Shown here: positions 23,907 through 28,973 of the stretch, piece by piece
Numbering within the stretch: position 1 is the stretch's first letter
Layout of the letters: every line of letters starts with the position of its first letter
NCBI GenBank assembly: GCA_003130845.1
Contig: QEXW01000122.1
Span: 1 to 43,138 of the forward strand
DNA length: 43,138 nt
Source of the DNA: Anaerolineae bacterium
Lineage (GTDB): Bacteria > Chloroflexota > Anaerolineae > Anaerolineales > Villigracilaceae
Direction of reading: 5' to 3'
The notes under the pieces: generated by a model
What the model saw: only the letters and a program-made list of their open reading frames with translations
The model's database searches: none
What the model was told of the DNA's origin: nothing
Made by a program: the position numbers and the translations under genes

Positions 23907-25988
23907 ATGAAAGAGTACACGACCGAGTACCTCCGCAACATCGCCCTGGTCGCACACGGCGGCGCCGGGAAAACGATGATGGCGGAGGCTTTTCTTCATT
24001 TCAGCGGAGCGACCACCCGGTTAGGCAAAACGGAAGATGGCACGACCGTTTCCGATTATGATGAAGAAGAAATTCGCCGCAAAATTTCGCTCTACACCAG
24101 CGTAATTCCAGTCGAATATCGCGACCACAAAATCAACGTGCTGGACGCGCCCGGCTTTACCGATTTCATCGGTGAAATGATTTCGGCGCTCAGTGTGGCC
24201 GATGGGGCGCTGATTTTGGTTGATTCCGTCGCAGGCATGGAAGTTGGCACCGAGCTGGCCTGGGATTATTGTGACCGCTTCAACTTACCTCGTTTTGTGG
24301 TCATTAACAAAATGGACCGCGAAAACGCCAACTTCGACAAAGCCTATGCCTCGATCGATGAATTTGCCCACGCATCTGGGGCGCGCCTGGTGAAAGTGCA
24401 GTTGCCCCTCGGCGAAAAACTCGACTTTCGCGGAGTCATTGACCTGATTTCGATGAAAGCCTATGAAGGCGATGGCAAAACGGCCAAAGATATTCCTGCG
24501 GAATACAAATCTGCCGCCGAGGAAGCACGCACCGTGCTGATGGAAGCTGCCGCAGAGGGCGACGATGCCCTGATGGAAAAATACTTTGAAAACGGCGAGC
24601 TCACCCAAGAAGAACTTCTGCGTGGCCTGAAGGCCGTTGTCCAGAGTGGCGCTTTCATTCCGGTCTTTGTCTCGGCGGCCGGTCATGCCAAAGGTGTGGG
24701 CCCTCTGCTGAGCGCCATTGTTGACCTGATGCCCAGCCCCGCCCAACGTCCTGCCGTCAGCGTACAAGGCAAAGAAGGCGAAGAAAAACTCACCCCCACC
24801 GATTCCGGCCCCACCGTTCTGTATGTCTGGAAGACAACCGCCGACCCCTTTGTAGGAAAGATGACGTATTTCAAAGTGCTTTCGGGGAGCGTTGCCGCTG
24901 ATGTCCACTTGTGGAACCAGACCAAAAACGCCGATGAACGTATGGCCGGCTTGCACATTCAGCGCGGCAAAGAGGCCATTCCGGTCAAATTGGTTCACGC
25001 TGGCGATATTGCCGCGGTGACCAAACTGAGCGTGACTGCAACCGGTGATACCTTGTGCGACAAGAATCACCCCGTCACCGTACCCGTCCCCACCTATCCG
25101 CACGCGCTCTATCGGGTGGCCATTCAACCCAAAACCCAAGCCGATGCCGCTAAAATTTCTCCCACCCTCACCCGCCTGTGCGAAGAAGATATGACCCTCT
25201 CGTGGTACAACGAGCCGGCTACCGGTCAGACCATCCTACAAGGCATGGGCGACCAGCACATTGACGTGGTTCTAAACCGCGCCCAAACCAAATTCCAAGT
25301 GGGGCTGCTCACCACCGAACCCAAAGTACCCTACCGCGAAGGCATCACCCGCAAAGCATCGGCACAATATCGCCATAAGAAACAGACCGGCGGTGCAGGG
25401 CAATTTGGCGAAGTCCATTTGCGCATCGAACCTTACCCAGAGGGCGATTTCCTGTTCACCGATGAACTGGTCGGCATGAACCTCTCTCGCTCCTACCTGC
25501 CGCCCATTGAAAAAGGCATCCGCGCCGCCATGGACCAAGGCGTTTTTGCCGGCTACCCCATGAGCAACGTCAAAGTGATTGTGTACGACGGCAAAGAACA
25601 CCCTGTAGACTCTAAACCCGTGGCCTTTGAAACCGCCGGACGCGAAGCATTCAAGCTGGCCGTGCAAGAGGCTGGCCCAGTCCTGTTTGAACCGATTATG
25701 AACGTGCGTATCACCGTGCCGGATGCCAACATGGGCGATGTGATGGGCGACCTGAACACCCGACGCGGCCGGGTACAAGGCACAGAAGCCGAGCGCGGAA
25801 AGACAACCATCATTGCTCACGTACCGCTCGCCGAAATGTTACGTTACACCACCCAATTGCGCTCCCTGACCGGTGGCCGCGGCTACTTTACAATGGAATT
25901 TGACCACTACGACATTGTGCCGCAACATCTCACCCAGCCCATTGTAGAAGCGCACAAAAAGGAACTGGAAGCCAAGAAAGAAGAGTAA
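23907..25988 (+). CDS. Elongation factor G paralogue (EF-G-2/FusA2-like)
   Basis: The 693-aa translational GTPase has the five EF-G domains. The P-loop reads AHGGAGKT (16-23) where canonical EF-G has AHIDAGKT. DAPGFTDF and NKMDR (from residue 134) complete the G motifs. The early GATTRLGKTEDGTTVSDYDEEE and the slightly reduced length place it with the EF-G-2 group (for example the Thermus second EF-G and mycobacterial FusA2), whose cellular role is unclear. GAGGAG precedes the ATG. It diverges from infC and has no str-operon partners (rpsL, rpsG, tuf), so the housekeeping fusA is probably elsewhere. A strong terminator follows. Confidence 0.88.
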   Translation: MKEYTTEYLRNIALVAHGGAGKTMMAEAFLHFSGATTRLGKTEDGTTVSDYDEEEIRRKISLYTSVIPVEYRDHKINVLDAPGFTDFIGEMISALSVADGALILVDSVAGMEVGTELAWDYCDRFNLPRFVVINKMDRENANFDKAYASIDEFAHASGARLVKVQLPLGEKLDFRGVIDLISMKAYEGDGKTAKDIPAEYKSAAEEARTVLMEAAAEGDDALMEKYFENGELTQEELLRGLKAVVQSGAFIPVFVSAAGHAKGVGPLLSAIVDLMPSPAQRPAVSVQGKEGEEKLTPTDSGPTVLYVWKTTADPFVGKMTYFKVLSGSVAADVHLWNQTKNADERMAGLHIQRGKEAIPVKLVHAGDIAAVTKLSVTATGDTLCDKNHPVTVPVPTYPHALYRVAIQPKTQADAAKISPTLTRLCEEDMTLSWYNEPATGQTILQGMGDQHIDVVLNRAQTKFQVGLLTTEPKVPYREGITRKASAQYRHKKQTGGAGQFGEVHLRIEPYPEGDFLFTDELVGMNLSRSYLPPIEKGIRAAMDQGVFAGYPMSNVKVIVYDGKEHPVDSKPVAFETAGREAFKLAVQEAGPVLFEPIMNVRITVPDANMGDVMGDLNTRRGRVQGTEAERGKTTIIAHVPLAEMLRYTTQLRSLTGGRGYFTMEFDHYDIVPQHLTQPIVEAHKKELEAKKEE

Positions 25989-26007: not shown

Positions 26008-26042
26008 AATGACGCCTGTAGCCAGTGGCAGGCGTCATTTTT
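26008..26042 (+). terminator. Intrinsic terminator after the EF-G-like gene
   Basis: AATGACGCCT (26008-26017) and AGGCGTCATT (26030-26039) pair perfectly around a 12-nt loop and end in a T run. Confidence 0.87.
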
Positions 26043-26074: not shown

Positions 26075-26102
26075 TTGACTTTCTCTATACGGTGAGTAAA
26101 AT
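26075..26102 (+). promoter_or_regulatory. Promoter of the cysteine/thioredoxin operon leader
   Basis: TTGACT (26075-26080), a 16-nt spacer and TAAAAT (26097-26102). The start near 26109 leaves about 210 nt of untranslated leader. Confidence 0.65.
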
Positions 26103-26141
26103 ACAAAGTATGAAGAAATTTAATTTACTTTGCTCCTGTAT

Positions 26142-26302
26142 GGCGCGGGGTTCGTAACCGCCGCGCCTTCGTGTGAACAACATCATCTGACCGAAGGAAC
26201 GGCGCACGAATCCCGCATGTGAACACCCTTCACATGGCGCCCGGCCGCCGTTCTTTTATTTTGCCCCTGTGGGGTGAAATGGGTCAGATGATTTTATTTT
26301 TT
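26142..26302 (+). ncRNA. Structured leader RNA (candidate riboswitch) of the cysteine operon
   Basis: Four helices nest without conflict. P1: 26182-26192 pairs with 26282-26292, 11 bp perfect (ATCATCTGACC with GGTCAGATGAT). P2: 26194-26204 pairs with 26246-26256, 11 bp with one G-U. P3: 26216-26223 pairs with 26229-26236, 8 bp around CACCC. P4: CCCC/GGGG at 26264-26274. An upstream hairpin (26142-26167; GGCGCGG-GGTT with AACC-CCGCGCC) precedes them. TTCGTG (26168-26173) can also pair with CACGAA (26205-26210), a pseudoknot or switch. The 3' strand of P1 is followed at once by a T-rich tract, then AAGGAGG. It matches no class I recognise. Confidence 0.65.
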
Positions 26303-26320
26303 ATAAGGAGGATCAATGAC

Positions 26321-26815
26321 ATGGAAAGCCTAAAAAAAGTGGACCACAGTGCAATGACGGTCAATCAGGTCATCATCATTGCGCTCAACATCTTGGCCTT
26401 TGTTTTGAATCTGCCCTGGCTAACCGGAGTGGTGACAGCTGTCATGCTGCTCGGCGCACTGCTCGGCCAACCCGGCTTCGGCTTCATCTACCAGTTTGCC
26501 CTCAAACCGGCCGGCTTGGTCAAGCCGCATCTCCTGTTAGATAATCCCGAACCCCATCGCTTTGCGCAAGGCTTGGGTGGCTTATTCATGTTGGGCGGCA
26601 CACTAGCTCTCTTTAGCGGATTCTCTGTTTTGGGCTGGGGTCTGATTTGGGTAGTTGCTGCCCTGGCCGCACTCAACGCTTTCGGAGGGTTCTGCGTGGG
26701 CTGTTTCATTTACTACTGGCTAACGCGCCTGGGGTTGCCGGGTTTTTCAAAAACGCCCCCCGCAGGAACTTTCCCAGGCATGCGACCCAAAGAGGCGGTG
26801 AGCGATGAGCGGTGA
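26321..26815 (+). CDS. DUF4395 membrane protein
   Basis: The 164-aa integral membrane protein matches the DUF4395 family: AMTVNQVIIIALNILAF near the start, about four membrane helices, then FGGFCVGCFIYYWLTR with Cys125 and Cys128, the conserved pair. DUF4395 proteins are commonly linked to thioredoxin-like and sulfur-metabolism genes; the function is unknown, and redox or sulfur-species handling in the membrane is a guess. The ATG at 26321 is 9 nt after AAGGAGG. An earlier in-frame GTG falls inside the structured leader and is rejected. Its end overlaps the thioredoxin gene by 11 nt. Confidence 0.85.
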   Translation: MESLKKVDHSAMTVNQVIIIALNILAFVLNLPWLTGVVTAVMLLGALLGQPGFGFIYQFALKPAGLVKPHLLLDNPEPHRFAQGLGGLFMLGGTLALFSGFSVLGWGLIWVVAALAALNAFGGFCVGCFIYYWLTRLGLPGFSKTPPAGTFPGMRPKEAVSDER

Positions 26816-27224
26816 AATTCTGGACCGTCTTTTCGTCGCAATCATCATCACTGCCCTGACCGTAGCGGGCTATTCACTTTTCAACCGATACACACTGCAA
26901 CGAGCCTACGGCAAATTAGGGCGCTTTCCTTCGTATCAAACCGGCCTGCCAGCCATTATCTATTTCACCACCCCCACCTGCGCGCCCTGTAAGACCGTTC
27001 AGCGGCCAACCATTGAGCGACTGAAAAAGCAATACGGAAAATGGTTTCAGGTCATCGAAGTAGATGCCAGCCAGCAGCCGGAAATTGCACAAGAATGGGG
27101 CGTGATGACCGTCCCGACTACCTTTGTAATTGATGCGCGTGGCAAGCCCCGTTATGTCAATCAGGGCATTGCCACAGCAGAGAAATTAATTCAACAACTT
27201 GATTTGGAGGATTTTTCAATATGA
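26805..27224 (+). CDS. Membrane-anchored thioredoxin-family protein
   Basis: The 139-aa protein has one N-terminal membrane helix (about residues 9-27) followed by a thioredoxin fold. The active site is CAPC at 59-62 (in [11 protein letters not shown]), and the cis-proline loop is [10 protein letters not shown] (near 106). The active-site pair CAPC departs from the classic CGPC. The fold is placed outside or inside the membrane according to helix orientation, which is not certain. It overlaps DUF4395 by 11 nt and cysK by 4 nt (ATGA), so the three are translationally coupled. It may deliver electrons to DUF4395 or keep a sulfur-transfer step reduced. Confidence 0.87.
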
Positions 27225-28156
27225 AAATTGCAGCGAATGTAACTGAACTGATTGGCAACACCCCGTTGGTGCGCTTAAACCGAGTCACCAACGGCGCCGC
27301 CGCCGAAGTAGTAGCCAAGCTAGAATTCTATAACCCGGCAAAAAGCGTCAAAGACCGAATTGGCTTTTCGATGATTGACGCCGCGGAACGAGCCGGTGTG
27401 CTTACGCCCGATAAAACGATTGTCGAACCAACCAGCGGGAATACAGGCATCGCACTGGCGATGGTGGCTGCTGCCAAAGGCTATCGCTGCATCCTGACCA
27501 TGCCTGAGACGATGAGCAAAGAGCGTCGCATGTTGCTGCGCGCATACGGCGCCGAACTGATCTTAACCCCCGGCCCAGACGGCATGGGCGGCGCTATTCG
27601 CAAAGCCGAGGAAATCGTTAATTCCGACCCCGAACGCTACTTTATGCCCATGCAGTTCAAAAACCCCGCCAACCCGGAAATCCACCGTCAGACCACTGCG
27701 GAGGAAATCTGGCGCGATACCGATGGCAAGGTGGACATTGTCGTTTCGGGCATTGGCACCGGCGGGACGATTACCGGCGTGGGCGAGGTGCTTAAAAGTC
27801 GCAAACCCTCGGTGCGGATGGTAGCCGTTGAGCCAGATGCCTCGCCGGTGCTTTCCGGTGGTGTCAAAGGACCACACAAAATTCAAGGCATTGGCGCAGG
27901 CTTCGTTCCTGAAGTGCTGAATACCAAAATTTACGACGAAATTGTGCGGGTGACCGATGACAACGCGATGGAAACTGCCCGTCGCTTAGCCAAAGAAGAG
28001 GGGCTATTGGTTGGAATTTCCTCCGGTGCAGCCACCTGGGCCGCACTACAAGTAGCACACCGCCCCGAAAATGCAGGAAAACTCATCGTGGTTATCATTC
28101 CCTCCTTTGGCGAACGTTACCTGTCCTCCGCATTGTACGCACACTTGGCAGATTAA
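27221..28156 (+). CDS. cysK: Cysteine synthase (O-acetylserine sulfhydrylase)
   Basis: The 311-aa PLP enzyme makes cysteine from O-acetylserine and sulfide. Motifs: [10 protein letters not shown], the PLP lysine in NPAKSVKDR (Lys44), the substrate-binding [11 protein letters not shown], and the phosphate loop [12 protein letters not shown]. The C-terminal tail is of normal length. CysK rather than CysM or cystathionine beta-synthase is favoured by length and by cysE downstream. The ATG overlaps the thioredoxin stop by 4 nt. cysE follows 58 nt later. Confidence 0.95.
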
Positions 28157-28214: not shown

Positions 28215-28973
28215 ATGCAAGCCGAATTATCTGGCACAATCAATCGCAAAACCCAAAAAACGCCTAGTTTTTTTGCTTCGATACGCGATGACCTGAAATC
28301 CGCACTGCAGCGCGACCCGGCCGCCCGCTCACGGCTAGAAATCGCATTGCTCTACCCCGGCTTACACGCCATTTGGATTCACCGCATCAGCCATTGGCTG
28401 TGGTGCCACAACGCCAAACTTTTGGCGCGCTGGCTCTCTCAACTCGCACGTGGCTTAACCGGCATTGAAATTCACCCCGGCGCCAAAATCGGCCAACGCG
28501 TATTCATTGACCATGGCATGGGCGTGGTGATTGGCGAAACCGCTGAAGTAGGTAATGACGTGACCTTGTATCACGGCGTTACCCTGGGCGGAACTTCGCT
28601 CAACAAAGGCAAACGGCACCCAACCATTGGCGACCGTGTCACAATCGGTGCAGGCGCCAAAGTGTTAGGAAACATCACCATCGGCAACGACAGCCGCATT
28701 GGCGCCAATGCCGTTGTGGTCAAATCGGTCCCTGAAAACTCGGTCGTGGTCGGTGTACCCGGGCAAATCGTCAAGCGCGCTCAACCACACCGCCCCAGCG
28801 ACGCACCTGACCTGAATCACACCGCACTGCCGGATGTCTTTGCCACCGCCATTCGAGACCTTCTAGCCCGCGTAGACGACCTAGAAAAACGGGTCGAAGG
28901 ACATGCCCACCCGCATCATCCACACTTTGCACCGGTGGGTGATGCATGGCAAGAAGTAGATTACGCCATTTAA
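28215..28973 (+). CDS. cysE: Serine O-acetyltransferase
   Basis: The 252-aa enzyme makes O-acetylserine for CysK. The N-terminal helical part (about 20-80) is followed by the left-handed beta-helix of hexapeptide repeats. Hallmarks: [20 protein letters not shown] (82-101 region), [10 protein letters not shown], the [10 protein letters not shown] loop with His120, and KRHPTIGD. The C-terminal extension after the helix is longer than usual and ends in a coiled-coil-like DDLEKRVEG with a His-rich tail; how it binds CysK is not evident. AAGGGAG precedes the ATG; an upstream frame overlapping cysK is not needed. An intrinsic terminator follows. Confidence 0.94.

Follow-up and report, generated by a model that had tools for sequence, protein, structure and literature searches.

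Upstream of the DUF4395–thioredoxin–cysK–cysE operon of an Anaerolineae bacterium, the forward strand of contig QEXW01000122.1 (assembly GCA_003130845.1; the 43,138 nucleotides (nt) analysed are hereafter the window) carries a leader RNA that, on the evidence of its sequence and homologues, is very probably a ribosome-mediated transcription attenuator of trp-like build, sensing cysteine through charged tRNA-Cys. In it we find a leader open reading frame (ORF) with cysteine codons, a terminator-like hairpin with a U-tract, a predicted antiterminator that excludes this hairpin, and cysteine genes as putative targets. By anatomy, this is a leader-peptide attenuator, predicted to sense cysteine and widespread in Anaerolineae. 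A previous sequence-only reading had singled out positions 26142–26302, a region that starts within the leader ORF and whose upstream hairpin, indeed present at 26142–26167, is the end of that frame; it had overlooked both the ORF and the U-tract directly after the second helix (26254–26262).

Leader reading frame and alternative pairings

The leader ORF runs from ATG to TAA at 26110–26157 and encodes MKKFNLLCSCMARGS (codons from 26110: ATG AAG AAA TTT AAT TTA CTT TGC TCC TGT ATG GCG CGG GGT TCG TAA), an assignment based on reading the sequence and on the conservation of a Cys-x-Cys ORF among homologues. Its two cysteine codons, within TGC TCC TGT at 26131–26139, are the candidate sensors. Across 165 collected copies of the leader, a Cys-x-Cys ORF is always in frame and ends beside the helices, with a start codon no more than 60 nt upstream (ATG in 164, GTG in one). 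The first cysteine codon is TGC in 157 copies and TGT in 8, the second TGT in all 165, and the residue between them varies (L 96, S 36, M 14, I 10, R 5, F 2, T 1, V 1). Five further sense codons follow in most copies; the stop is TAA (86), TAG (72) or TGA (7), and 158 of the 165 copies share its codon position. The cysteine codons lie outside all the pairings described below (P0, P2, P1 and the antiterminator), yet they are conserved. Neither the start codon nor the upstream open frame was part of the search model, and an ATG within 60 nt that reads through without a stop is found in 164 of 165 copies in the cysteine frame; in the other two, the counts are 6 and 10, and shuffling of the upstream DNA gives 15.8%. 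The exclusive TGT at the second cysteine differs from the usage of the downstream genes (TGC 248, TGT 90), perhaps reflecting slower decoding or a constraint on the RNA.

A consensus scan places a promoter-like site at 26075–26102 on the same strand, with TTGACT (26075–26080), a 16-nt spacer and TAAAAT (26097–26102), matching the consensus at 10 of 12 positions (shuffles average 0.7). TAAAAT ends 7 nt 5' of the leader ATG and, because the promoter-like site directly precedes this ATG, the mRNA may start at or near it and the ORF may be translated leaderless in the window. Leaderless translation fits the window but not all copies; a Shine-Dalgarno-like site precedes the leader ORF in 31 of 164, and of the 133 copies that have no such site, 27 carry a TANNNT box whose end lies 7 nt upstream of the ATG. 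Further upstream lies a gene for an EF-G-like translation factor (23907–25988), separated from the leader by a terminator-like hairpin of its own (26008–26039).

The end of the ORF is covered by hairpin P0 (26142–26167, pairing 26142–26152 with 26156–26167), the putative 1:2 or protector hairpin, which is supported by the fold and by pair counts and competes with the antiterminator. Hairpin P2 (26193–26257), the candidate terminator 1, pairs 26193–26204 with 26246–26257 around an inner hairpin at 26217–26235 and is directly followed by U-tract 1, TTTTATTTT, at 26254–26262, seen in the sequence and as a terminator-like scan site at 26234–26251 plus tail. The sequence-only reading had given P2 as an 11-bp helix (26194–26204 with 26246–26256) and the inner hairpin as 8 bp; both are present where they had been placed, with one G-U among the 11 pairs, the additional pair 26193–26257 in the fold, and 7 inner pairs (26217–26223 with 26229–26235).

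The antiterminator would join GCGGGGTTCGTAACCGCCG at 26145–26163, which takes in the final sense codons of the ORF, the stop codon and the next 6 nt, to CGGCGCACGAATCCCGC at 26200–26216. The latter overlaps the 5' strand of P2, and the antiterminator and P2 are mutually exclusive. A pseudoknot between TTCGTG (26168–26173) and CACGAA (26205–26210) had been suggested instead. Both strings exist and the 3' strand was correctly identified, but conservation points to GCGGGGTTCGT (26145–26155), within the leader ORF, as the partner of ACGAATCCCGC, and this pairing replaces the one proposed.

Covariation was assessed on alignment A3, comprising 101 model-aligned copies (100 distinct), with the antiterminator absent from the search model. 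The antiterminator is paired in 91.8% of cells, against at most 55.0% in slid versions; on four of the five measures, no shuffle out of 500 came up to it, and on the fifth 14 did. One of its pairs varies between A-U (55), G-U (25) and G-C (15). P2 is paired in 97.4% of cells, with two-sided changes at five of eight pairs, and P0 and P2 together have 243 cells with two-sided changes, compared with 107 in shuffles. The check that had been proposed for this region, a collection of homologues and a search for covariation, thus returned conserved leaders in which P0, P2 and the antiterminator covary.

Alignment A5, which replaced A4 because the latter held three spurious matches (two antisense and one partial), aligned the antiterminator columns poorly for divergent copies, and partner-swap tests were used instead. 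In this test, run on 51 copies from beyond the family after deduplication, own partners reached 24.5 and swapped partners 19.7, and with the conserved core masked 17.6 and 15.7; in both cases, none of 5000 permutations was as good. A control stretch at the cysteine codons gave no own-partner advantage in the same test (13.2 versus 13.6; 4746 of 5000). Examples of strand pairs from divergent copies are GCGAGGGC with GCCCTCGC, GCGGGGGCGTTAGCC with GGCTAACGCTCCCGC, and GCGGGAATAGTCAC with GTGGCTATTCTCGC.

The outer helix P1 is, as had been described, a perfect 11-bp Watson–Crick helix joining ATCATCTGACC (26182–26192) to GGTCAGATGAT (26282–26292). None of 1000 mononucleotide shuffles of 26142–26302 reached 11 bp (the longest had 10), in agreement with the earlier judgement that such a helix is unlikely by chance. 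The CCCC/GGGG hairpin P3 is likewise there (26258–26280, pairing 26258–26267 with 26271–26280), and in alignment A1 it occurs in some homologues and is missing in many. Where P3 is missing, A1 misaligned the 3' strand of P1, which was therefore assessed by a separate helix search. The P1 helix found in homologues has a median length of 11 bp and pairs the linker with sequence located past P2; compared with 50 shuffles of the linker, 135 of the 165 copies did better than 49 or more, while the other 30 fell short of this. Its sequence is variable (116 distinct 5' strands in 165 copies), and the 10 nt past it hold at least five T in 130 of 165 copies, against a background of 36% T. In the window, the 3' strand of P1 and U-tract 2 (TTTATTTTTTAT, 26293–26304) make up a candidate second terminator at 26282–26304. 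As the 5' strand of P1 lies in the loop of the antiterminator, P1 and U-tract 2 are perhaps a second, nested terminator, and the antiterminator could disable P2 and P1 together. The 201-nt fold that includes P1 contains P0, P1 and P2 and has −83.3 kcal/mol (z = −5.3), with none of 200 dinucleotide shuffles equally good. One homologous leader (L024 at about 1600–1660, genome G073) carries an insertion with a repeated CCCGGTTCTTGATTGGGAT unit inside the terminator-1 hairpin.

Ribosome position and rival explanations

With ample Cys-tRNA, the translating ribosome would reach the stop codon (26155–26157) and cover 26145–26163; the antiterminator would then be blocked, P2 would form and transcription would end at 26254–26262, or at P1 with U-tract 2. 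Under cysteine shortage, the ribosome would pause at a cysteine codon (26131–26139), most effectively the first, and the freed 26145–26163 would pair with 26200–26216 once that strand is transcribed. P2 would be blocked, and RNA polymerase would continue into DUF4395–trx–cysK–cysE. If the ORF were not translated at all, P0 would favour termination.

The Escherichia coli ribosome reaches 15 nt beyond the first base of the P-site codon. On this assumed footprint, the entire 5' strand of the antiterminator is covered when the stop codon occupies the A-site, and is left free by a ribosome waiting at the first cysteine codon. When the 101 copies are folded before the 3' strand of P2 has been made, the antiterminator is above 0.5 in 92 without a ribosome, 97 with one at the first cysteine codon, 58 at the second and none at the stop. 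Once the core is complete, P2 is above 0.5 in 93 copies without a ribosome and in all 101 with one at the stop, and without a ribosome P0 and P2 win in most of the 101. From these folds, the first cysteine codon looks the better sensing codon.

Several observations weigh against attenuation of this kind. The ribosome footprint is an assumed one, taken from E. coli. Even with the ribosome at the first or second cysteine codon, equilibrium at full core length favours P2 in 62 and 88 of the 101 copies, respectively, and antitermination must therefore rely on the antiterminator forming first. The window's own isolated core, unlike most copies, gives the antiterminator 0.99 and P2 0.0 without a ribosome; unless P1 is decisive, this would imply readthrough even when the leader is not translated. 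Within the antiterminator, one pair is not formed in 61 of 91 cells of A3, and the own partner is the best of its row in just 8 of the 51 swapped copies, making the support from the swap test collective. The search model includes the positions of the cysteine codons, whose conservation is thus partly selected, the invariant TGT at the second of them is unexplained by coding alone, and the core covariance model R1 has no match in 19 of the 152 family genomes searched.

The sequence-only reading had favoured a sulfur-related small molecule as ligand. The association behind that idea stands, since BLAST places cysteine- or sulfur-family genes downstream in all 160 copies that could be assessed; the ligand itself finds no support, the conserved 5' block being an ORF with cysteine codons. 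A riboswitch for cysteine, O-acetylserine, S-adenosylmethionine or sulfide, with P1, P2 and P3 as aptamer and switch, would account for the strong structure, the tight link to sulfur genes and the absence of an Rfam class. It would not lead one to expect that this block looks translated, with fixed cysteine codons and a varying stop codon, or that the other conserved positions lie mostly in the terminator and antiterminator helices, while the sequence of P1 varies and P3 is often missing. No separate ligand-binding core is visible in alignments A1–A3, and the riboswitch, dropped as the leading explanation once the conserved leader ORF was found, now seems very improbable. Also improbable, in our estimate, is that the same RNA elements respond to a nascent peptide, Cys-x-Cys-x-x-Arg-Gly, stalling the ribosome on a thiol, persulfide or metal and not for want of Cys-tRNA. 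That C-x-C and R-G are conserved across the class, and that the second cysteine codon is always TGT, hints that more than two generic cysteine codons may matter; against this, the conservation of R-G is explained by the overlap of its codons with the antiterminator strand, the residue between the cysteines varies widely, and the peptide is very short.

Translation of the leader ORF could also govern access to the ribosome-binding site of the operon, as is reported for mycobacterial polycysteine ORFs, and in the window CTCCT (26133–26137) can indeed pair with AGGAG (26306–26310). This anti-Shine-Dalgarno pairing requires a TCC middle codon, whereas most copies have TTG; it was set aside as confined to TCC variants. 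Moreover, P1 stops short of the ribosome-binding site and two U-tracts follow GC-rich helices, and we give translational attenuation little credence. A T-box reading uncharged tRNA-Cys directly would suit the same type of gene and the same signal. However, it has no match at E ≤ 10 on 26080–26340, where only SNORD28 and GIR1 appear, far below threshold, and the leader has an ORF and a trp-like architecture instead. No Rfam family, T-box included, reaches its gathering score anywhere in the window, as the sequence-only reading had anticipated in seeing no known class; the known Rfam classes were rejected for lack of a match, and a T-box is barely conceivable. Cysteine-sensing transcription attenuation remains the explanation we consider very probable. 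A more elaborate form of it, in which one antiterminator disables two nested terminators (P2 within P1) and the Cys-x-Cys nascent chain, alongside Cys-tRNA, tunes the pause (for example, by responding to thiol, persulfide or metal state) across a class-wide cysteine regulon of Anaerolineae, is a speculative and rather unlikely extension.

Distribution and downstream genes

The bacterium's own family (152 genomes) was searched at both the DNA and the protein level, which retrieved leaders upstream of cysK or DUF4395 genes. Two covariance models were used, the core model R1 (26 sequences) and the broader R2 (45 sequences). R1 matches 133 of the 152 family genomes, which bears out the earlier reading of the leader as a conserved regulatory element in cis, with alternative long-range pairings and adjoining U-tracts. 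It also matches 49 of 396 genomes sampled from the class and 31 of 400 from the phylum, all of the same order among the matches listed. With R2, matches were obtained in 85 of 392 genomes of the class sample and in 30 of 350 of the phylum sample; about 304 of these 350 lie outside the class, as inferred from list order. Among the matches listed from the R1 and R2 phylum samples, none is a genome outside the class. An exact-pattern scan with one genome per species gave 90 stretches, and the 80 listed are titled Anaerolineae, Anaerolineales, Chloroflexi or similar.

The 165 copies are the 170 hits taken from the R1 family and class matches listed, minus 5 without sequence. Eight R1 class rows were excluded, as partial or weak (G315, two in G334, G399, G352, G215 and one in G151) or as an antisense overlap (G140); G315 and G215 were recovered with R2. 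From the R2 class set, 40 new places were used, with G334, G399, G196, G172, G318, G287, a second place in G495, and G151 excluded. A C-x-C ORF is present in 39 of these 40 places, and the remaining one (G179), having neither such an ORF nor a sulfur gene, looks like a false match. In one genome (G034), two leaders stand in tandem before a single cysteine synthase gene (L169, 200–340 and 505–639), an unusual arrangement for attenuators.

In the window, the leader is followed on the forward strand by the ribosome-binding site AAGGAGGA (26305–26312) and then by the genes of the DUF4395 protein (26321–26815; Pfam PF14340, 3.1e-29), a thioredoxin-like protein (26805–27224; PF00085), cysteine synthase A, cysK (27221–28156; NCBIfam TIGR01139, 489.6 bits against a cut-off of 351), and serine O-acetyltransferase, cysE (28215–28973; TIGR01172, 257 bits against 211). 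The start of the DUF4395 gene is overlapped by a five-codon frame, MTWKA*, at 26316–26333, whose ATG lies 5 nt ahead of the DUF4395 start codon.

Across the copies, downstream genes were identified through BLAST comparison with reference proteins taken from the window and some homologous loci; 5 of the 165 copies could not be assessed, owing to a contig edge or to only about 200 nt of sequence. The first gene is a second-type cysteine synthase in 88 copies, cysK in 30, a rhodanese (mostly followed by SufE) in 22, DUF4395 in 15 and cysE in 2, with thioredoxin, ThiF and CBS in one copy each; Pfam backs the rhodanese, SufE, ThiF–rhodanese and CBS assignments. In the R2 set, 35 of the 40 places were assigned to the same gene types, one had too little sequence, and O-acetylhomoserine sulfhydrylase (TIGR01326 above cut-off) lies downstream of another three; cystathionine gamma-synthase is also found downstream in further members of the class. 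The leaders before O-acetylhomoserine sulfhydrylase are divergent (L324, L346 and L351, in G315, G220 and G349), and in L346 and L351 the next ORF resembles, by eye, a homoserine acyltransferase, a link to methionine synthesis. Many genomes have a second leader before a rhodanese–SufE pair (L154, L170, L174, L175, L178–L180, L182–L184, L188, L192, L194 and others), and the putative regulon therefore extends to sulfur transfer and Fe-S assembly.

Known attenuators and a putative sulfur regulon

Attenuators of the trp/his type in Proteobacteria have a short leader ORF whose codons include those of the amino acid produced, a 1:2 hairpin, a 2:3 antiterminator and a 3:4 terminator with a U-tract. 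The leader described here has the corresponding parts, with P0 as the candidate 1:2 hairpin, and differs in being predicted to read cysteine and not Trp, His, Leu, Thr, Ile or Phe, in having Cys-x-Cys in place of a codon run, in its outer helix P1 and second U-tract, in belonging to Chloroflexota, and in often having no Shine-Dalgarno site before the leader ORF. For mycobacterial polycysteine leader ORFs, Canestrari et al. (2020) is reportedly the source cited on their regulation. Excerpts of the papers cited below by PMC number, to which our statements about them refer, describe the trp/his type (PMC8079986, PMC3766115) and place cysteine leader peptides before cys operons in Actinobacteria, without conserved terminator hairpins (PMC1262725). 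Like those of Mycobacterium, Propionibacterium and Bifidobacterium, which are ORFs with cysteine codons upstream of cys operons or cbs, our leader precedes cysteine genes; unlike them, with their cysteine runs near the stop and, in the excerpt, no intrinsic terminator (PMC1262725), it has C-x-C, a terminator-like hairpin and a covarying antiterminator. Mycobacterial cysteine-rich upstream ORFs were proposed as the first case of cysteine-directed attenuation (PMC4633059), and the cys genes of M. smegmatis are under translation attenuation, as cited in PMC13236596. Cysteine-responsive ORFs and leaderless translation, described for mycobacteria (PMC4633059), are predicted for the present leader as well; the mycobacterial ORFs differ in being described as acting by translation attenuation, with no terminator and antiterminator pair described in the excerpts (PMC4633059, PMC13236596). 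Among the leader peptides of Streptomyces lividans catalogued in PMC8079986, the CMCRRMC of metL recalls C-x-C-x-R-R-G and has a sulfur-related target, metNIQ; metL was assigned to Met/Thr, with no clear terminator in that excerpt (PMC8079986), and the kinship is one of sequence resemblance.

As of 2010, according to PMC2965389, Proteobacteria and Actinobacteria were the groups with described leader-peptide systems, to which that paper added Firmicutes, and in 2013 the attenuators in Rfam were limited to His, Leu, Thr and Trp, according to the excerpt of PMC3766115. Our search of Rfam and the open-access literature, with subscription papers and preprints mostly outside its scope, found no cysteine attenuator with an intrinsic terminator and antiterminator, and the same literature yielded no leader-peptide attenuator in Chloroflexota. 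Cysteine has long been without a well-described classical attenuator, and the leader described here is a complete, conserved and testable candidate that would extend leader-peptide attenuation to Chloroflexota. It can be used as a new RNA family in annotation, gives DUF4395 a functional setting, and delineates a putative sulfur regulon comprising cysteine synthases, DUF4395–thioredoxin, rhodanese–SufE, ThiF–rhodanese, cystathionine enzymes and O-acetylhomoserine sulfhydrylase.
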